Shown here piece by piece: positions 13,226 through 44,768 of a stretch of DNA of 45,484 nucleotides. Numbering within the stretch: the first letter of the stretch is position 1; each line of letters opens with the position of its first letter. The notes beneath the pieces are model-generated. The model searched no databases. It was given only the letters and a program-made list of their open reading frames with translations, and had not been told where the DNA came from. The DNA is from Desulfuromonadales bacterium (GTDB lineage Bacteria; Desulfobacterota; Desulfuromonadia; Desulfuromonadales; JAHYIW01). The position numbers and the translations under genes were made by a program. The stretch covers positions 1-45,484 of the forward strand of contig JARGFI010000021.1 of assembly GCA_029210745.1 (NCBI GenBank), given 5' to 3'.

Positions 13226-14542
13226 TTACTTGGCAGCTTTGGCTGCATCTTCGAGCATCGCGGTCGTCAGCGACTTGGGCCGCTCAATGCCGTAGCCCAG
13301 AGCACGGTCCCAGGTGATGTTCGCCAGGCAACCAAGGGCACGACCAACACCGAAGAGCACGGTGTAGAACTCGTACTGAGTCACGCCATAATACCATTGA
13401 ATGACACCAGACTGCGCATCGACATTCGGCCACGGGTTCTTGGCCTTACCATGTTCGGTGAGAACGCCCGGTGCAACTTCAAAGATCATTTTGATCAACT
13501 GGAACAGCGGGTAATCCTTGAGACCCGGGGTCTTCATGCAGAATTCGCGCTGCGATGTGTAACGCGGGTCGGTCTTGCGCAGTACGGCGTGGCCGTAACC
13601 GGGGATAACCTGACCGCTGTTGAGAGTATCCCACAGCGCTTTCTTGAGACCTTCTTCAGTCGGCACTTCACCACCGAGTTTGGCCATGAAGTTTTGGGTC
13701 CAGCGGAGAACTTCTTCGTTGGCCAGGCCATGGAGCGGACCAGCCAAACCGTTGATCCCGGCACTGTAGGAGTAGTAAGCGTCGGACAGGGCCGAAGCAA
13801 CCAGATGCGTGGTGTGAGCGGAAACGTTGCCGGACTCATGGTCAGAGTGCAGGATGAAGTACATCCGGGCGACGTCGTCATAAGGAGCCGGGATCCCCAT
13901 CATCCGAGCAAAATTCCCGCCCATGTCAAGTTTCGGGTCGGCTTCGATATGGGTATCGCCCATGTACTTCATGCGATAGATATACGCTCCGATCGGACCC
14001 AGTTTGGCCATCAGGTTGGTACAATCTTCGTACATGTCTTCCCAGCAGGTCATCTTGTTGAACTTGCCGGCGGCATAGTTGCTGGCAAAGATCGAATCGC
14101 GCTGCATGGCAATAATGGCCGAGGAGAACATGGCCATCGGATGGGAATCACGCGGCAGGGCGCGCAACACGTCGATAACGTACTGCGGAATCTGCGAACG
14201 CGTTTTCCACTCTTCGCACACTTCCTGAGCCTGCTTCAGCGTCGGCACATCACCAGTCAGGAGCAGATACCAGAAACCTTCAACATAAGGATAATCGCTA
14301 CCCGGAACCTTCGGCAACGCCGCAAAGGTCTCCGGAATGGTCATGCCGCGAAAACGAATGCCTTCCATCGGATCCAGATAGGAAATATCAGTAACCAGAC
14401 AGCGGACGCCGCGGGCCCCACCGATCGCCTGGGAAATGGTCACATCACCCAGTTTCACATCGCCGAATTCCTTAACCAGCTTGGTGGTCCGGGGACGGTG
14501 TGCATCGATCTTCTTGCGCAGGACTTCTTTCAATGTCGACAT
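13226..14542 (-). CDS. gltA: Citrate synthase, eukaryote-like type
   Basis: A 438-residue enzyme condensing acetyl-CoA and oxaloacetate, the entry step of the citric acid cycle. The catalytic trio aligns by motif with the pig-heart enzyme: His271 in GPLHGLANEEV, His318 in GYGHAVLRKTDPRY and Asp375 in NVDAQSG. Motifs such as HSDHESGNVSAHTTHLV, GINGLAGPLHGL and the mitochondrial-like N-terminal LKEVLRKKI are those of eukaryotic citrate synthases rather than of the hexameric E. coli type. Geobacteraceae are known to carry such an enzyme. AAGGAGAG lies seven bases before the ATG. It is a single gene with its own promoter at 14611-14639. In this physiology it would be the main flux point for acetate oxidation. 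Confidence 0.97.
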   Translation of the reverse strand: MSTLKEVLRKKIDAHRPRTTKLVKEFGDVKLGDVTISQAIGGARGVRCLVTDISYLDPMEGIRFRGMTIPETFAALPKVPGSDYPYVEGFWYLLLTGDVPTLKQAQEVCEEWKTRSQIPQYVIDVLRALPRDSHPMAMFSSAIIAMQRDSIFASNYAAGKFNKMTCWEDMYEDCTNLMAKLGPIGAYIYRMKYMGDTHIEADPKLDMGGNFARMMGIPAPYDDVARMYFILHSDHESGNVSAHTTHLVASALSDAYYSYSAGINGLAGPLHGLANEEVLRWTQNFMAKLGGEVPTEEGLKKALWDTLNSGQVIPGYGHAVLRKTDPRYTSQREFCMKTPGLKDYPLFQLIKMIFEVAPGVLTEHGKAKNPWPNVDAQSGVIQWYYGVTQYEFYTVLFGVGRALGCLANITWDRALGYGIERPKSLTTAMLEDAAKAAK

Positions 14543-14639: not shown

Positions 14640-14826
14640 CCCTCAATATCCAGCAACGACACGTCAATTTAGAATGGCCTTATACATGACAATTCGAAAG
14701 ATAACAGTCAGAGCATACGGTGTCAGCAGACAAAGCGACCAGGCATGTATAAACTGCACGTATATTGTCTGGTCCGATTTTCCAAATATTGTTCTAACAA
14801 CTCACTTTCTAATTGTCAAGAGGATT

Positions 14827-14845
14827 ATTGTATACTGTATCCATC
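14827..14845 (+). promoter_or_regulatory. Imperfect GTATAC palindrome, candidate operator in the gltA/dusB region
   Basis: The sequence ATTGTATACTGTAT is identical over 14 bases to the left and centre of the perfect palindrome upstream of pyc (40936-40958). The right arm here is degenerate (GTATCCATC against GTATACAAT). It lies about 90 bases before dusB and about 190 bases upstream of the gltA -35 box. A further GTATAC core sits at 14909-14914 inside ACGTATACGT. A TTGTCA at 14813 could be a -35 for dusB, placing the palindrome over the -10. The match to the FadR-type GntR pattern (TnGT...ACnA) is by eye. Confidence 0.45.
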
Positions 14846-14932: not shown

Positions 14933-15931
14933 ATGCACAAAATCATCCCCCTGACAATCGGCAGTCTGAAACTGGCGAACAATATTATCGCTGCTCCCCT
15001 TGCCGGTATCACCGACTCTCCCTACCGTCGGCTGCTGAAACATTTCGGGGCGGGGCTGGTCTTCACTGAAATGGTCAGCGCCAACGGACTGATTCGCGAT
15101 GGCAAGGGGTCTGTTGTGCTCTTACAGTCGGATCCGGCTGAATCCCCGCTGGGCATTCAGCTGTTCGGTGATGATCCGGTTGTCCTGGCCGAAGCAACGC
15201 GACGCAGTGCCGCTTACGGAGCACTGATTGACATCAACATGGGTTGTCCGGTTAAAAAAGTTATTCGTTCCGGGGCAGGGAGCGCCCTGTTGAAAAACCC
15301 GCGACTGATTGGCCGCATTATTGCGGCGGTGCGCGCGGCCACGGACAAACCGTTGACGATCAAAATTCGCTCGGGGTGGGATGTGCAGCATCTCAATTTT
15401 CTGGAAGTTGCCCGGATTGCGCAGGACGAAGGGGTTGATGCCATTACCCTGCACCCGCGCACCCGCACGCAGGGGTTCTGTGGTCGCGCCGACTGGCAAC
15501 AACTCGCGGAGTTGAAAGGTGCAGTCAACGTTCCGGTCATCGGCAGCGGCGATATCATGACCGCCGCCGACGCTGTCGAGATGCTCCATGTCTCCAAATG
15601 CGACGCGGTCATGATCGGTCGCGGGGGGCTCGGTCGCCCCTGGTTGATCCGCGAGATTCTGTCCCGACTGGGCGGGGATGACCCCACTCCGGTGACCATG
15701 GCTGAGCGTTGCGACATTGCTCTACGCCATCTTGACTGGCAGCGTGACCTGTTCGGTGAGCACAAAGCTGTTCTCGATCTGCGCAAACATCTCTCCTGGT
15801 ATTCGCGCGGGATAAGCGGTGCCGCGACCTTTCGTGCGCAACTGAGCTCAATCAACGACTTCGATCCCTTGCGCCGCACAGTCACCACCTTTTTCGATGC
15901 TGCCCTGGCGACAGAAAACCTCAACCTGTGA
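14933..15931 (+). CDS. dusB: tRNA-dihydrouridine synthase (DusB/NifR3 type)
   Basis: A 332-residue flavoenzyme reducing uridine to dihydrouridine in tRNA. The TIM-barrel core shows APLAGITDSPYR near the start, FTEMVSANGL, the catalytic cysteine in DINMGCPVKKV, KIRSGWD, TLHPRTRTQGFCGRADW and VMIGRGGLGRPWL. The ATG has no clear Shine-Dalgarno sequence, but the protein N-terminus (HKIIPLTIGSLKLANN) is normal for the family. It is the first gene of an operon with a histidine kinase and an NtrC-like activator, the same order as nifR3-ntrB-ntrC in alphaproteobacteria. Its stop overlaps the next start by four bases. Confidence 0.94.
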   Translation: MHKIIPLTIGSLKLANNIIAAPLAGITDSPYRRLLKHFGAGLVFTEMVSANGLIRDGKGSVVLLQSDPAESPLGIQLFGDDPVVLAEATRRSAAYGALIDINMGCPVKKVIRSGAGSALLKNPRLIGRIIAAVRAATDKPLTIKIRSGWDVQHLNFLEVARIAQDEGVDAITLHPRTRTQGFCGRADWQQLAELKGAVNVPVIGSGDIMTAADAVEMLHVSKCDAVMIGRGGLGRPWLIREILSRLGGDDPTPVTMAERCDIALRHLDWQRDLFGEHKAVLDLRKHLSWYSRGISGAATFRAQLSSINDFDPLRRTVTTFFDAALATENLNL

Positions 15932-37978: not shown

Positions 37979-39237
37979 TCACTTGCGTCGCCAGGCATGG
38001 AATGTCTCCACCCAGGCCAGCAATTTTTCCGGGACATGTGCCTTCTTCCATTCCCCGGCCGCCATCTTGTTGGCCTCGGCCAGGGTCGGATAGGGGTGGA
38101 TGGTGCCGAGAATCTTGTTCAGGCCGAGGCCATGCTTCATCGCCAGAATATATAGGCCGACCCGGGCGACCTCCGGATCAGTGAAGGTGACCCATGGGAT
38201 GACCCGATAGTCAACCGGGAACTTTTTGGAATCTCCAAACAGGGCATTGACGCTGGCGTACCAGGCCTGGTGCCCGGCGGGATGGGTAAACTGGTACGGC
38301 GCGGCGACCGTAGGCAAGCATCTTTGCAGAGCGAATCAGCGCCTTGCTCGGGACGCAACCGGTATTGAGGCAGTCGCCCCCCATCTTGTGCTTCTCGATG
38401 AGCGCAACCTTGGCCTTGACCGCCGCAGCGATGTAGCTGGAGACCAGTCCGGCGGAACCGGCGCCGAGGACGATAACGTTATAAGCGAATTTTTTCGGCT
38501 GAGTAAATTCTTGAGCGTCTGACGTTTCTTCATGATCTCGATCCCCTTGCGGGCAATGAGCGGAAAAACACCAAGCAGGACAAAGGAGAACAGCAGGCCG
38601 GGAGAAAGAATCCCGCTCAGGCTGTTGATCTGACCGAGCTGGGTGCCGGCGTTGGCATACACTGCGGACCCCGCGAGCATACCGACCTGACTGACCCAGT
38701 AAAAGTTCAACGTGCGCATCGGGGTCAGCCCCATCACCAGGTTGATGATGAAAAATGGAAAGATCGGCACCAGCCGCAAGGTGAACAGGTAGAACGCCCC
38801 CTCTTTTTCAACCCCCCGGTTGATCGCCGCCAGCCGATCGTGGAAGCGGTTTTGCACCCAGTCCCGCAGCAAAAAGCGGCTGACCAGAAAGGCCAGGGTT
38901 GCACCGATGCTGCTGGCGAAGGAGACACCACCAGTGCAGGCAAGAAACCGAACAGCGCGCCACCGGCCAGGGTCATGACCGCCGCCCCTGGCAGCGACAG
39001 GGCGGTCACCAGGACATAAAGAACAAAATAAAGCCCCAAAGTCAGCAGTCGATGAGCCGCATAGAACTGCTGGAACTCCGCCTGACGGGCCTTGAGTTCG
39101 GCGAGGGTCAGGTAGCGTTGCAGATCGAAAACAAAGAACGTCACGACCAGTACGGCAATGGCAATAATAACCAGGATTTTTTCCAGCGACCCGACATGAT
39201 GAACCCCTTTATTCGTTTTCCGAACAGCTGGCACCAC
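37979..39237 (-). pseudogene. Broken TVP38/TMEM64-FAD-dependent oxidoreductase fusion gene
   Basis: The remains of a protein joining a TVP38 membrane domain to a mercuric-reductase-like flavoprotein. The TVP38 part starts near 39237 (LEKILVIIAIAVLVVTFFV; LSLPGAAVMTLAGGALFG), then shifts frame near 38922 and continues as LLRDWVQNRF, RLVPIFPFFIINLVMG and YANAGTQLGQI. A second frame change at about 38500-38535 leads into NVIVLGAGSAGLVSS and the redox-cysteine motif GGDCLNTGCVPSKALIRSAKM. That then jumps near 38310, with another frame change, to PYQFTHPAGHQAWYASVNALFG, the C-terminal dimerisation part. From family knowledge, roughly 250 residues of FAD/NAD domain are missing there, and about 55 more between EVARVGL and YILAMKHGLG near 38155. 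It cannot yield an active enzyme. It overlaps the radical SAM gene end. Confidence 0.88.
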
Positions 39238-40126
39238 AGGCGAAACAGGAATAACAGCGGTGATGACCGAGCATGACCCGCCTGTCCATCGCGACCTTCA
39301 GCGTTGGTCCCAGATCATAGCCCAGGACATCATCCACCAAGGTACAGGCATATACGCCACACTGCCCGTTTTTACGCACAACCATCTTGCTGAAATGACA
39401 CATGAAGGCGGCACGCTGCTCGGCGCTTAAATAATGGGTCATGCAGGTTTCGGTAATCTCCGGGACCTGATGGAAAGAGCCGGACAAATGAAATTCCGGA
39501 AACTTGATGATGGTAATATCGTCGGGAACACCGACACTGCGGAAAAAGGGAACATAGCTGCGATCCACGGCGGCGCTGTCCTCGTCCGGAAGCATCAGAC
39601 GGGCGATGGAGACACCAAAACCGGCCCGATGGAGCCGTCCCAGGGTGTCGAGCGCTTTGTTGAAGTTCCCCGTGCCGCGTGCCGCGTCGTGTCTGGCCGG
39701 GTCGGGATAATCCAGACTGACCCGGAACTTGAGCGGATTCGGCTTATTGGCCAGCCCAAGCACCTTGGCCATGCGGTTCATCAGCGGCTCGGTGGCGTTG
39801 GTCAACACCAGGCAGGGACGATGCTCCAAAGCGGTCTCTAAAATGGCAACAAACTGCGGGTTGACAAACGGCTCACCGCCGGTGAAGGAAAACTTTTTGA
39901 CCCCGAGTTCCAGCGCTTCGTCGATAAAGCGTCGGACATCGTCCAGGGTCAGATACTCGATGCGGTTATCTCCAGGCTTTGCGCCTTCGAAACAAAAAGG
40001 GCAGCGCAGATTGCAGTTGGTTCCGGTGTGAAACCAAAGCTCTTCAAGCAGCCGGGGCTGAATATAACCACGTGGCTCATTTTGGCTGGTGGTGAACCAA
40101 GTGTCGTCAGTGCTGTTCATCTTCAT
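39209..40126 (-). CDS. Radical SAM protein with SPASM-like cysteine-rich C-terminus
   Basis: A 305-residue radical SAM enzyme. The SAM-cluster cysteines are C38, C42 and C45 (CNLRCPFC), and the SAM-binding TGGEPF lies at 82-87. The C-terminal third holds eight cysteines in the segments TETCMTHY, FMCHF, GQCGVYAC and HRCYSCFACGASC, enough for two auxiliary iron-sulfur clusters, as in SPASM proteins. GGAG precedes the ATG. The gene looks intact, although its downstream partner is broken. No precursor peptide gene is visible nearby, so its substrate is unknown. It is transcribed with the TetR gene upstream, with a 42-base gap. Confidence 0.85.
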   Translation of the reverse strand: MKMNSTDDTWFTTSQNEPRGYIQPRLLEELWFHTGTNCNLRCPFCFEGAKPGDNRIEYLTLDDVRRFIDEALELGVKKFSFTGGEPFVNPQFVAILETALEHRPCLVLTNATEPLMNRMAKVLGLANKPNPLKFRVSLDYPDPARHDAARGTGNFNKALDTLGRLHRAGFGVSIARLMLPDEDSAAVDRSYVPFFRSVGVPDDITIIKFPEFHLSGSFHQVPEITETCMTHYLSAEQRAAFMCHFSKMVVRKNGQCGVYACTLVDDVLGYDLGPTLKVAMDRRVMLGHHRCYSCFACGASCSENE

Positions 40127-40168: not shown

Positions 40169-40756
40169 TCAAGGTTTGAGTTCGAGCAGAACCCGCAACG
40201 CGTCAAGTGCCCGTTTAAGCGGGCCTCCCTCTTTCTTCAGCCGGGATTGCATGATCCCGCCTTCAATCGTTCCTACCACCAGTTCGGCCAGCTGGTCGGC
40301 GGGCAGATCCTGACGGAGCTGGCCGTTCGCCTGGGCGGCTCGAATCGTTTCTTCCAGTTTGTCGATCCACTCGACAAAAACCTCACTGACCAGTTCCGCA
40401 AAAGACGGTGCGTTGTCGCAAGTTTCAAGCGCCGTGTTGCCAAACAGGCAACCACCGACAAACCCTTTGCTGCAATTACGCTCCATAACATGACAGAAAA
40501 AACTGTCCAGCCTGGCTCCGGGGGTGTCCCCGTGCAGGGTGTCGTCCAGAAATTGCCCGAAAGCATCCCTCTCCCGCCGCAAAACCGCCAGGCCGACCTC
40601 TTCCTTGCTGGCAAAGTGAAAATAGAGGTTCCCTTTGGTCATGCCGGTCGCGTCCAGCAGATCATTGATAGTTGTGGTCAAAAATCCCTTGCGCTGAAAA
40701 ACTTGCGCGGCTTCATCAAGAATTTTTGTCCGCGTGATTTCACCCTTGGTTGCCAT
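40169..40756 (-). CDS. TetR/AcrR-family regulator
   Basis: A 195-residue repressor from the ATG at 40756, supported by GGAGG seven bases upstream. The open frame beyond it covers the promoter and is not coding. The helix-turn-helix reads TRTKILDEAAQVFQRKGFLTT and LDATGMTKGNLYFHFASKEEVG. The ligand domain carries cysteines (RNCSKGFVGGCLFGNTALETC), reminiscent of electrophile-sensing members of this family such as NemR/YcdC-like proteins. It is the first gene of the radical SAM/oxidoreductase operon and probably represses it. Confidence 0.92.
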   Translation of the reverse strand: MATKGEITRTKILDEAAQVFQRKGFLTTTINDLLDATGMTKGNLYFHFASKEEVGLAVLRRERDAFGQFLDDTLHGDTPGARLDSFFCHVMERNCSKGFVGGCLFGNTALETCDNAPSFAELVSEVFVEWIDKLEETIRAAQANGQLRQDLPADQLAELVVGTIEGGIMQSRLKKEGGPLKRALDALRVLLELKP

Positions 40757-40935: not shown

Positions 40936-40958
40936 ATATTGTATACTGTATACAATAT
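40936..40958. promoter_or_regulatory. Perfect 23-base palindrome upstream of pyc, candidate operator
   Basis: The arm ATATTGTATAC is followed by a single T and then by its exact reverse complement. It contains two GTATAC cores and lies 355 bases upstream of the pyruvate carboxylase start, in a 490-base gap without a supported gene. A TTGTAT inside it with TTATCT 17 bases on could be an overlapping promoter. The form fits operators of FadR-type GntR regulators. It has a partial copy at 14827-14845. Confidence 0.6.
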
Positions 40959-41141: not shown

Positions 41142-41171
41142 TTGACAGTCCAGTTGTTCAGATATTATAGT
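41142..41171 (+). promoter_or_regulatory. Sigma-70 promoter for pyruvate carboxylase with operator half-site
   Basis: TTGACA is followed by TTATAG after 17 bases (or TATAGT after 18). The half-site GTATACAA at 41179-41186 falls at the expected transcription start, where a bound repressor would block initiation. The leader to the pyc ATG would be about 135 bases and is AT-rich. Confidence 0.6.
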
Positions 41172-41312
41172 CCACCGCGTATACAACTTTCATAAACCAC
41201 TACAATTAAAAGATTTTTTAGCGTTAGTAAAAATTTTAACCGTGCTGATTTTGTTTAAAATTTTGATAAAATTAAAGATCTGTTTCAGCAACCACTTTTG
41301 GAGAAACATTCA

Positions 41313-44300
41313 ATGACAGTAAAGAAATTCAAGAAAGTCATGGCAGCCAACCGCGGCGAAATTGCGATCCGGATTTTTCGCGCCTGCACCGAACTGGGAA
41401 TTAACACGGTAGCGATTTATTCGGAAGAAGACAAGCTGTCACTGCATCGTTACAAAGCTGACGAAGCCTACCAGATCGGCAAAGGCAAGGGACCGATCGA
41501 CGCCTACCTGAGTATCGACGAAATCATCGACCTGGCACGCCGCAAAGATGTCGACGCGATTCACCCCGGCTACGGTTTTTTATCGGAAAATGCCGATTTC
41601 GCCGAAGCATGTGAGCGCGCGGGGATTGCGTTCATTGGCCCCACCCCTGAGATTCAGCGTCTTCTTGGCGACAAGGTTTCCGGGCGCAAGGTTGCAACCG
41701 AGGCCGGAGTCCCGGTGGTACCGGGCACGGAAGATCCGGTCAGCAGCGAAGAGGAGGCTCTGATCTTCGCCAAATCGTGTGGCTATCCGATCATTGTCAA
41801 GGCTTCGGCCGGAGGGGGTGGCCGTGGCATGCGGGTGGCCCAGAATCAGAAGGAACTGCTCGAAGGACTTAAATCAGCCGCCTCGGAAGCCCAGGCGGCG
41901 TTTGGCAATGCCACCATTTTTCTCGAAAAATATATCGAAAAGCCGAAACATGTCGAGGTTCAGGTCCTCGGCGACAAGCACGGCAACCTGGTCCATTTTT
42001 ATGAGCGCGACTGTTCTATCCAGCGCCGCCATCAAAAAGTCATTGAAATCGCTCCGTCACTCTACCTGACGAAAAAGAAACGTGAGCAGCTGTGTGACTA
42101 CGCGCTGAAAATTGCCGGCGCGGTCAACTATGTCAATGCCGGCACCATTGAATTTCTGATGGACAAGAACGGCGATTTTTACTTTATTGAAGTCAATCCC
42201 CGCATTCAGGTTGAGCATACCGTGACCGAACTGGTGACAATGCGCAACCTGGTGCAGGCACAGATTCGCATTGCCCAGGGGCACAAGCTCTCTGACCCGG
42301 AGATCGGCATCAAAAGTCAGAAGGATATTGAACTGCGGGGCTTTGCGATCCAGTCACGCATTACGACCGAAGATCCGAACAATAATTTCGCCCCGGATTT
42401 TGGAATTATCAAAGCCTATCGCACCGCCGCCGGGTTCGGGGTACGTCTTGACGCCGCCGCCGGTTACGCCGGAGCAATCATCACCCCGCACTACGACTCC
42501 TTGCTGGTCAAGATCTCAACCTGGGGATTAACTTTTCGCGATGCCTCCCGCACCATGGATCGCGCACTGCAGGAATTCCGTATTCGCGGAGTCAAGACCA
42601 ATATCGGTTTTCTGGAGCGCGTCATCACGCATCCGCTCTTTCTCGCCGGGGAATGTGACACCTCGTTCCTTGATGAACACCCGGAAGTGTTTAAATTGCC
42701 GGTCAAGCAAGATCGCGCCAACAAGCTGCTCAGTTTCATCGGCAACATTTCGGTCAACGGCTACCCCGGCATCCAGCCGGGGAAAGCACTGCGCTTTAAA
42801 GACCTGCGCGAACCGGAAGTACCGGAGATTCACTACAGCCAGCAACACCCGCGCGGCACCCGCGACATCCTGCTCGCCAAAGGTCCGCAGGGACTGGCAG
42901 AATGGGCCCTTGCCAACAAACAGCTGCTGGTTACCGACACCACCTGGCGTGATGCCCACCAGTCGCTGATGGCAACCCGCATCCGCACCTATGACCTTGA
43001 GCGGATCGCTGAAGCAACCGCCCATCTCGGTGGTGGACTGTTCTCTCTTGAAATGTGGGGGGGAGCAACCTACGACGTCTCCATGCGCTTTTTGCGCGAA
43101 GACCCCTGGGAGAGGCTGCAACGGCTGCGCAAGAAAGTACCGAACATTCTCTTTCAGATGTTGCTGCGCGGCTCCAACGCGGTAGGATACACCAATTATG
43201 CGGACAATGTGGTCCAGGAATTCGTCATCAAGGCGGCGCACAGCGGCATCGACATTTTCCGGATTTTTGATTCGCTGAACTGGGTCAAGGGGATGCAGGT
43301 GGCCATGGACGCCGTGCGTGAACAAACCAACGCCGTATGCGAAGCGTCAATCTGCTATACCGGCGACATCCTCGATCCAAAACGCGACAAATACCCCCTC
43401 TCCTACTATGTCTCGATGGCAAAAGAGCTGGAGAATATGGGCGCACATATTCTGGCGATCAAGGATATGGCCGGGTTGCTCAAACCGTTCGCCGCTGAAA
43501 AGCTGGTCAAGGCACTCAAACAGGAGATCGGGATTCCGATTCACCTCCACACCCACGACACCTCAAGCAACGGGGGTGCGATGCTGATGATGGCCGCCCA
43601 GGCGGGATGCGACATCGTCGACGCGGCCCTTTCCTCAATCTCCGGCCTGACTGCGCAACCGAATCTCAACGCGATGCTGGCAACGTTTGAAGGCACCATC
43701 TGGGATCCAAAACTCAATCAAAAAAACATGCAACTCCTCGCCAACTACTGGGAGACGGTTCGCTCCTATTACGCACCCTTCGAATCCGAACTGCGCAGCG
43801 GCACGGCACAGGTGTACCATCACGAGATTCCCGGTGGGCAATATTCAAACTACAAGCCGCAGGTCGAAGGGCTCGGACTCGGTCATCGCTGGGAAGAATG
43901 CAAGGAGATGTACCGTAAAGTGAACGATATGTTTGGCGATCTGGTCAAGGTAACCCCCTCTTCAAAAATCGTCGGCGATATGGCGATGTTCATGGTGCAG
44001 AACAATCTGGAGCCCAACGACGTGTTCGAGCGCGGAGCCGACCTGGCCTTTCCGCAAGGAGTCATCGATTTCTTCAAAGGGATGATTGGTCAGCCCTACG
44101 GCGGTTTCCCGCCGGAGTTGCAGAAGATTATCCTCAAAGGGGAAGAACCACTCACCTGCCGTCCCGGCGAACTGTTGGAACCGGTGGATTTTGCGGCCAA
44201 AAAACAGGAGCTGGAAGGCCGGATTGGTCACCCGGCCAACGCTGAAGATGTTCTGTCGGCAGTCCTCTATCCGGAGGTCTTTGAGGAATTTGATCGGCAT

Positions 44301-44768
44301 CGTCAGGAATTCAGCGACACATCGGTCCTCCCGACCCCCGTCTTTTTCTACGGGCTGGAACCTGGGGACGAAGTTTCCATCGACATCCAGCCAGGCAAAA
44401 CCCTGATTATCAAGCTCAACGCCATCGGACGAATTCAGGACGACGCCACGCGCAACATTTACTTTGAGCTTAACGGCGAACCACGCCAGATCGTGGTCAA
44501 GGATCTGTCTGTCGAATCAAGCGAAGCAACGCATGACAAAGCCGATGCGGGGAATGACAAGCAGATCGGCGCACCGATGCCGGGCAAAATTTTCAAGCTG
44601 CTGGTGAGTGTCGGAGAAAAGATCAAAGCGGGGGAAACCGTGCTGACGACCGAAGCAATGAAGATGGAGACCAATGTCAAAGCCAAAACTGATGGCGTCG
44701 TCGCGGAGGTCCGCTTTAAAGAAGGAGATCAGGTCGATCAGGGTGATTTACTGATTGTCCTTGAGTAA
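41313..44768 (+). CDS. pyc: Pyruvate carboxylase
   Basis: An 1151-residue single-chain enzyme making oxaloacetate from pyruvate, bicarbonate and ATP. I start at the ATG at 41313, nine bases after GGAGA; a TTG at 41298 is in frame but lies in the Shine-Dalgarno region. The biotin carboxylase domain (1-460) has AANRGEIAIRIFRA, the glycine-rich SAGGGGRGMR, EVQVLGDKHGN and EVNPRIQVEHTVTE. The carboxyltransferase domain (about 530-810) has DTTWRDAHQSLMATR, EMWGGATYDV and HLHTHDTSSNGGAM. The C-terminal biotinyl domain has biotin Lys1117 in EAMKMETN. It supplies oxaloacetate for the citrate synthase reaction and for gluconeogenesis. Confidence 0.98.
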   Translation: MTVKKFKKVMAANRGEIAIRIFRACTELGINTVAIYSEEDKLSLHRYKADEAYQIGKGKGPIDAYLSIDEIIDLARRKDVDAIHPGYGFLSENADFAEACERAGIAFIGPTPEIQRLLGDKVSGRKVATEAGVPVVPGTEDPVSSEEEALIFAKSCGYPIIVKASAGGGGRGMRVAQNQKELLEGLKSAASEAQAAFGNATIFLEKYIEKPKHVEVQVLGDKHGNLVHFYERDCSIQRRHQKVIEIAPSLYLTKKKREQLCDYALKIAGAVNYVNAGTIEFLMDKNGDFYFIEVNPRIQVEHTVTELVTMRNLVQAQIRIAQGHKLSDPEIGIKSQKDIELRGFAIQSRITTEDPNNNFAPDFGIIKAYRTAAGFGVRLDAAAGYAGAIITPHYDSLLVKISTWGLTFRDASRTMDRALQEFRIRGVKTNIGFLERVITHPLFLAGECDTSFLDEHPEVFKLPVKQDRANKLLSFIGNISVNGYPGIQPGKALRFKDLREPEVPEIHYSQQHPRGTRDILLAKGPQGLAEWALANKQLLVTDTTWRDAHQSLMATRIRTYDLERIAEATAHLGGGLFSLEMWGGATYDVSMRFLREDPWERLQRLRKKVPNILFQMLLRGSNAVGYTNYADNVVQEFVIKAAHSGIDIFRIFDSLNWVKGMQVAMDAVREQTNAVCEASICYTGDILDPKRDKYPLSYYVSMAKELENMGAHILAIKDMAGLLKPFAAEKLVKALKQEIGIPIHLHTHDTSSNGGAMLMMAAQAGCDIVDAALSSISGLTAQPNLNAMLATFEGTIWDPKLNQKNMQLLANYWETVRSYYAPFESELRSGTAQVYHHEIPGGQYSNYKPQVEGLGLGHRWEECKEMYRKVNDMFGDLVKVTPSSKIVGDMAMFMVQNNLEPNDVFERGADLAFPQGVIDFFKGMIGQPYGGFPPELQKIILKGEEPLTCRPGELLEPVDFAAKKQELEGRIGHPANAEDVLSAVLYPEVFEEFDRHRQEFSDTSVLPTPVFFYGLEPGDEVSIDIQPGKTLIIKLNAIGRIQDDATRNIYFELNGEPRQIVVKDLSVESSEATHDKADAGNDKQIGAPMPGKIFKLLVSVGEKIKAGETVLTTEAMKMETNVKAKTDGVVAEVRFKEGDQVDQGDLLIVLE

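Follow-up and report, generated by a model that had tools for sequence, protein, structure and literature searches.

A palindrome upstream of the pyruvate carboxylase gene as a predicted operator shared by citric-acid-cycle, ATP synthase and complex I genes in Geobacter-like and Desulfuromonas-like bacteria

What is the role of the palindrome at 40936–40958, which lies upstream of the pyruvate carboxylase gene pyc and recurs in part beside the citrate synthase gene gltA? We examined it in the window, by which we mean the whole stretch of 45,484 nucleotides analysed here, in the remainder of the same genome (G000) and in related genomes. Direct reading bears out the original prediction that perfect arms flank a central T (ATATTGTATAC T GTATACAATAT; 11-base arms, fully complementary, no strand assigned), as well as its statement that a 14-base copy (ATTGTATACTGTAT) with a degenerate right arm is present at 14827–14840. 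In 100 dinucleotide shuffles of the window, no match to the palindrome was obtained with up to three mismatches allowed, and Rfam at gathering scores gave no RNA family across the whole window. The outer bases of the 23-mer break the symmetry in G104, the single other genome of the same genus that was compared, and the inner 17-mer is identical there; the unit tracked throughout is therefore the 17-mer TTGTATACNGTATACAA, and the perfection over 23 bp at 40936–40958 is partly owed to luck. In the window, the core operator (TTGTATACTGTATACAA) occupies 40939–40955. Judged by its recurrence, the palindrome is very probably the binding site of a DNA-binding protein that is predicted to exert joint control, in Geobacter-like and Desulfuromonas-like bacteria, over the citric-acid (TCA) cycle, complex I, ATP synthase and an enzyme that charges tRNA.

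The genome G000 contains 15 matches to the 17-mer at up to three mismatches (6 for the reversed control) and 6 at up to two mismatches (1 for the control). Three matches are exact, and these lie upstream of pyc, of icd, which encodes a monomeric isocitrate dehydrogenase, and of a GntR/FCD regulator gene (gntR). In total, 13 of the 15 sites are upstream of pyc, gltA, acnB, icd, mdh, sdhC, two nuoA genes, atpI, the atpF operon, glyQ, a FAD/Fe-S oxidoreductase gene and gntR, as assigned from reading frames, NCBIfam, Pfam and tblastn; of these sites, that of nuoA1 (TTGTATACACTTTACCA) is weak. The other two sites, at three mismatches on contigs C26 and C28, were set aside as chance matches from their surroundings. 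The idea of an operator shared between pyc and gltA is thus supported, with the 17-mer recurring before many genes: 13 of the 15 sites precede energy-metabolism genes, glyQ or gntR. A regulator dedicated to the oxaloacetate node, as originally proposed, is too narrow a description, the targets being spread over complex I, ATP synthase and glyQ as well as the TCA cycle.

The original prediction also held that the window contains no GntR gene and that the regulator would act in trans. In agreement with this, the GntR protein search of G000 gave no match inside the window, and matches were confined to contigs C41 and C63. The probable GntR-type regulator gene lies on contig C41 (G000:C41:17954-18655, minus strand), and an exact 17-mer ends 41 bp before its GTG start, so that a GntR gene carrying the site in its own promoter, which had been sought, is present. 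The C41 protein has an N-terminal winged helix-turn-helix (PF00392, E 1e-19, 70.3 bits against a cut-off of 27) and a C-terminal FCD domain (PF07729, E 4.5e-26, 92.1 bits against 24.3), and by both Pfam domains it is a member of the GntR superfamily, FCD (FadR-type) branch. None of the named NCBIfam GntR equivalogs (PmiR-like, PdhR, FadR, NanR, PhnR and others) scored above its cut-off among the 25 families listed out of 29, the best-scoring one being TIGR03338 (132.5 of 271.5 bits). The best 80 of 280 relatives include, among named genomes, Desulfuromonas, Malonomonas, Desulfuromusa, Geothermobacter, Geobacter and Oryzomonas. When 400 bp upstream of these orthologues were scanned, or as much as the contig contains, a site was found at 80 of 80 (12 exact, 58 with one mismatch and 10 with two), mostly near −48, and the reversed control gave best matches of 4–8 mismatches. 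A short palindrome bound by a dimer is a trait of the FCD branch; a palindromic site, to which a dimer may bind, precedes the gene in all 80 orthologues.

The sites and the regulator gene also occur together across genomes. Of 136 genomes of the order, 106 contain the 17-mer with at most one mismatch (reversed control, 0 of 136), and a search of 277 genomes of the class gave an orthologue of the C41 protein at E 1e-60 or better in 217. At least three sites (up to two mismatches) are present in 214 of the 217 genomes with an orthologue vs 21 of the 60 without, and, among genomes at least 90% complete (a filter on completeness alone, not on contamination figures), in 166 of 167 vs 4 of 33; these counts ignore kinship, and the genomes are related. 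The gene is missing, and sites are absent or nearly so, in the groups f12 (4 genomes), f17 (14 genomes, one site in total), g24, g50 (3), g60 (2) and g72 (8 genomes, 4 sites in total). All 14 genomes of f17 (G109–G122) are without the GntR gene, and the three examined (G109, G113 and G118) do have gltA and pyc. The pattern is not without exceptions: G136 has the regulator gene, yet one site, and G217 has at least three sites without an orthologue, those at icd and gltA being kept. G244 has six sites without an orthologue, and the three of the six that were examined are not at regulon genes.

Sites in further genomes were classed by comparison with the target proteins of G000. Nine genomes of the order gave 67 sites at up to two mismatches (control, 3), with 56 at the gene classes seen in G000, and four genomes of families f24 and f25 gave 26 (control, 4), with 24 at these classes; the 13 genomes combined thus have 80 of 93 sites at regulon gene classes. 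By gene, the site was found at gntR in all 13 genomes, at icd in 12, at the atpF operon in 9, at acnB and the oxidoreductase gene in 8 each, at glyQ and gltA in 7 each, at sdhC in 5, at atpI in 4, at mdh and nuoA in 3 each and at pyc in 1 (G104). The site before glyQ, which encodes glycyl-tRNA synthetase, is centred 38–81 bp before the start codon; it is seen in G000 (G000:C56:21972-21988; L005, L018), in 7 of the 13 further genomes (L245, L277, L282, L291, L300, L309, L391) and in both genomes of family f13. The conserved site-bearing FAD/Fe-S oxidoreductase has NuoF-like and glutamate-synthase-small-subunit-like parts, and we presume that it may be an SfrAB-type NADPH oxidoreductase; its label rests on Pfam (L007, L284), on tblastn (L350, L358, L379, L383, L389) or on N-termini shared by eye (L252, L295, L304, L310).

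The remaining 13 of the 93 sites are off the regulon (L254, L255, L259, L260, L266, L268, L273, L281, L287, L289, L294, L385, L394). Genes near them include rubrerythrin-like, cytochrome c, NiFe hydrogenase, molybdopterin oxidoreductase and TrkA-type genes. Sites near rubrerythrin-like genes were each seen in a single genome (L260 in G063; L385 in G161, read by eye), and L268 and L289 (G090 and G105) lie near multihaem cytochrome genes that come after the atp operon.

The position of the operator relative to candidate promoters suggests how it might act; the promoter positions are consensus matches rather than mapped starts, from a scan without a chance control. At gntR, the promoter TTGACA-N16-TACAAT, with the right arm of the operator as its −10, was found in the own gene, in the consensus of the 80 orthologues and in four of four f24/f25 genes, one of which has a variant with TTGACT and a spacing of 17. 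At icd and mdh, the left arm forms the −10 of TTGACA-N15 (13/13 and 4/4, respectively), and at acnB the operator covers the −10 (9/9). The glyQ operator is centred downstream of the consensus promoter, at about +15 to +27 (8/8), and that of nuoA in G161, G182 and G253 at about +8 to +17. With the core promoter overlapped at gntR, icd, mdh and acnB, and the operator just past it at glyQ, repression is the likely default mode. In G000, operators lie at −53 (sdhC), −55 (nuoA2) and about −52 (gltA), and an operator near −53 could serve either activation or repression. The scan gave no promoter pair at 6 of 10 atpF, 8 of 9 oxidoreductase, 4 of 6 sdhC and 3 of 3 Geobacter-group (f24/f25) gltA sites.

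The second copy in the window lies between gltA (13226–14542, minus strand; Pfam Citrate_synt 3.7e-92) and dusB (14933–15931, plus strand; Pfam Dus 9.2e-84). The gltA operator occupies 14828–14844 on the minus strand and reads ATGGATACAGTATACAA in the gltA direction, with two mismatches. A −35-like TTGACA in the same direction (14819–14814, minus strand) begins 8 bp from it and belongs to a candidate gltA promoter at 14791–14819 (minus strand; TTGACA-N17-TAGAAC with a TG extension), whose pattern is conserved in the alignment. The earlier worry that this site lies nearer to dusB loses its force, the gltA-directed promoter being directly beside the site and recurring in the alignment. dusB adjoins gltA in 30 of 30 loci, and gene order cannot separate the two as targets; dusB was set aside as a target, with the promoter beside the site facing gltA. 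Across the order, the operator is 6–8 bp upstream of the −35, with CTTGAC in 28 of 29 aligned regions. In 36 chosen genomes, of which G025 and G097 had no gltA match, leaving 34 loci, a site with up to four mismatches, its centre between −198 and −309 relative to starts placed by tblastn, was found in 29 of the 30 that have the regulator (the miss is G038) and in 0 of 4 without it (G109, G113, G118, G130). By this comparison of sequences, gltA is an old, conserved member of the regulon. In L380, L384 and L398 (f24/f25, the Geobacter group), the gltA operator, read by eye, comes after the −10, where the promoter script gave 0 of 3 pairs; a shift from upstream of the −35 in the Desulfuromonas group to downstream of the −10 in the Geobacter group is a weak inference from these loci.

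The situation at pyc (41313–44768, plus strand; Pfam PYC_OADA, biotin carboxylase and biotinyl domains) is different, and here the original expectation of conservation in relatives, which holds for gltA, fails outside the genus. The site is present in 2 of 33 genomes, G000 and G104, both of one genus (G103 gave no match; G007, with pyc split over two contigs, and G097 were left out), and at the other 31 pyc loci, four of them without the regulator, the best match has 5–7 mismatches, the same as for shuffled control palindromes. On this distribution, the pyc copy is a recent, genus-level gain. A candidate pyc promoter (41142–41171, plus strand; TTGACA-N18-TATAGT, with TTGACA at 41142 and TATAGT at 41166) lies about 190 bp downstream of the palindrome and is also found in G104. 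The centre of the palindrome is about 230 bp upstream of the expected pyc transcription start and overlaps no obvious promoter. At this expected start is a putative half-operator, GTATACAA (41179–41186, plus strand), the only one of the four half-site matches in the window (14828, 40939, 40948, 41179) that is outside the two operators; the whole pyc intergenic region is similar in G104, and conservation of the half-site there adds little. The half-site together with the distant palindrome invites a looping model, and control of pyc via the palindrome, perhaps by looping, is the least certain step of our proposal. A TetR-type regulator gene (40169–40756, minus strand; Pfam TetR_N, TetR_C_13) is divergent from pyc and is followed by a radical SAM gene (39209–40126, minus strand; Pfam Radical_SAM 1.8e-22), and both could also be targets of the palindrome.

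The pyc copy admits readings other than pyc control. It may be a real operator for the TetR-type and radical SAM genes on the divergent side, or one that serves no gene at all, in keeping with its confinement to one genus and with its distance of about 180 bp from the TetR-type start, compared with about 230 bp from the likely pyc start. The exact 17-mer match, the half-site at the pyc promoter candidate and the fact that pyc feeds the regulated pathway point back to pyc, and although we do not favour this reading, it has an appreciable chance of being right. That the palindrome is functionless chance sequence is hardly credible: the asymmetry of the outer three bases on each side in G104 and the genus-level conservation at pyc would fit, but shuffled windows do not reproduce it, the exact 17-mer also precedes gntR and icd, and conservation of the 17-mer across the class refutes chance for the motif in general.

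Concerning the protein that binds, the sites could belong to HgtR (GSU3364), the hydrogen-dependent growth repressor of Geobacter, acting alone or in competition with the GntR protein, with the GntR gene as one more target. HgtR is reported to repress gltA, atpG and nuoA, which belong to site-bearing operons here (PMC7726332, PMC7894505). Targets of this type carry the operator in G000 and, at up to two mismatches, in 7 (gltA), 9 (atpF operon) and 3 (nuoA) of the 13 further genomes. The HgtR gene is distinct from the GntR gene, and the comparison is one of reported targets. A site before the GntR gene in each of the best 80 orthologues, and site numbers that track the presence of this gene, make HgtR an unlikely owner of the operator. 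Another GntR-type protein might also bind, such as that encoded by the second match in G000 (C63:56794-57036), and here the two f13 genomes are relevant. All six sites of G102 are at regulon genes (glyQ, icd, the oxidoreductase gene, atpI, gltA and sdhC), and of the four sites in G101 the three examined are at icd, acnB and glyQ (f13 site loci: L345, L346, L351, L352, L357, L358, L403–L406). Neither genome has a recognisable orthologue, the best matches being at E 1.9e-22 with 27% identity (G101) and E 1.2e-10 (G102). Retention of regulon sites in both, although a recognisable orthologue is missing, counts against the GntR model, and their more distant GntR-type matches would suit another protein of this type. 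Against this, the C63 protein is just 36% identical over residues 4–84, and an exact site is found at the C41 gene; we consider a different GntR-type protein very unlikely.

We therefore favour, with good confidence, the palindrome as the operator of the autoregulated GntR/FCD protein encoded on C41, acting as follows. A dimer of this protein would bind the 17-mer and, at genes whose core promoter lies under the operator (gntR, icd, mdh, acnB) or just upstream of it (glyQ, and the Geobacter-group nuoA), would repress by occlusion or as a roadblock. Release from DNA would follow when the FCD domain binds a metabolite, for which a TCA carboxylate is the most plausible candidate. At gltA, sdhC and one nuoA of G000, with the operator centred near −53, the protein may activate or repress. 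At pyc, the genus-specific exact operator about 230 bp upstream of the start expected from the candidate promoter might act with the half-site, perhaps through looping.

The putative ligand pocket may be of an altered type. Histidine is found at positions 135, 139 and 183 in 80 of 80 orthologues, at least 78 of the 80 retain arginines 164, 166 and 175, and position 205, which by the usual FCD rules we take to be the fourth metal ligand, is T, N or A and never histidine. The usual ligands are Asp-His-His-His with a D-x3-H spacing, on which the call of an Asp-to-His replacement depends. This set is not present, with Asp and the fourth His replaced; Asp-His-His-His ligands are not universal in the FCD family. 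The best match among solved structures, 7xp0/7xp1 (E 9.2e-30; FCD-type), is presumably PmiR, a GntR/FCD regulator of Pseudomonas aeruginosa, which reportedly senses 2-methylisocitrate, according to the title of a 2022 study by Cui and colleagues. PmiR differs in its host, probably in its targets and in the metal site, where Asp and the fourth His are replaced in the family described here. PdhR and FadR, also of GntR/FCD type, exert wide control of carbon metabolism from a palindrome, and the protein proposed here would resemble them in controlling central carbon metabolism broadly from such a site; the C41 protein is far below the NCBIfam cut-offs for both (51.7 of 330 bits for PdhR, 29.4 of 249.2 bits for FadR).

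Closer to hand is GSU3370, which belongs to the GntR family and comes from Geobacter sulfurreducens. The best 80 of the 280 related loci include no named record of this species. The order ispD, ispF, glnS near the GntR gene of a Geobacter genome (L326) fits, we presume, the locus tags around GSU3370. Its binding at the gltA promoter is said to have been described by Ueki and Lovley in 2010. GSU3370 is reported to bind the gltA promoter, and little is said to be known of how it works or what it does in central metabolism (PMC10599522). It is alike in family, in bacterial class and in its reported binding before gltA, which carries the operator here; the text consulted gives no operator or regulon, and the two proteins are compared by description (PMC10599522). 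Our literature search, with most subscription journals outside its coverage, gave no description of the operator or regulon, which may be in print elsewhere, and no paper on TTGTATAC with Geobacter. The regulator family is already known; operator and regulon are not described in the literature searched.

A broader and more speculative idea, which we doubt in its full extent, is that a single GntR protein, autoregulated and with an FCD pocket modified to three His, might throughout the class be the ancestral master switch for carbon flow linked to respiration. Through it, glycyl-tRNA synthetase would be coupled, along with the TCA cycle, complex I and ATP synthase, to a single TCA metabolite, and the sign of regulation at gltA, and perhaps nuoA, would have switched in evolution as the operator moved from about −53 on the Desulfuromonas side to downstream of the promoter on the Geobacter side. 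The glyQ site is unexpected, as it would have a TCA regulator also act on a gene for tRNA charging. Geobacter-like bacteria reduce metals and produce current by oxidising acetate via the TCA cycle, and with the operator defined, a regulator gene identified and a list of conserved targets to hand, the control of TCA flux in these bacteria becomes testable.
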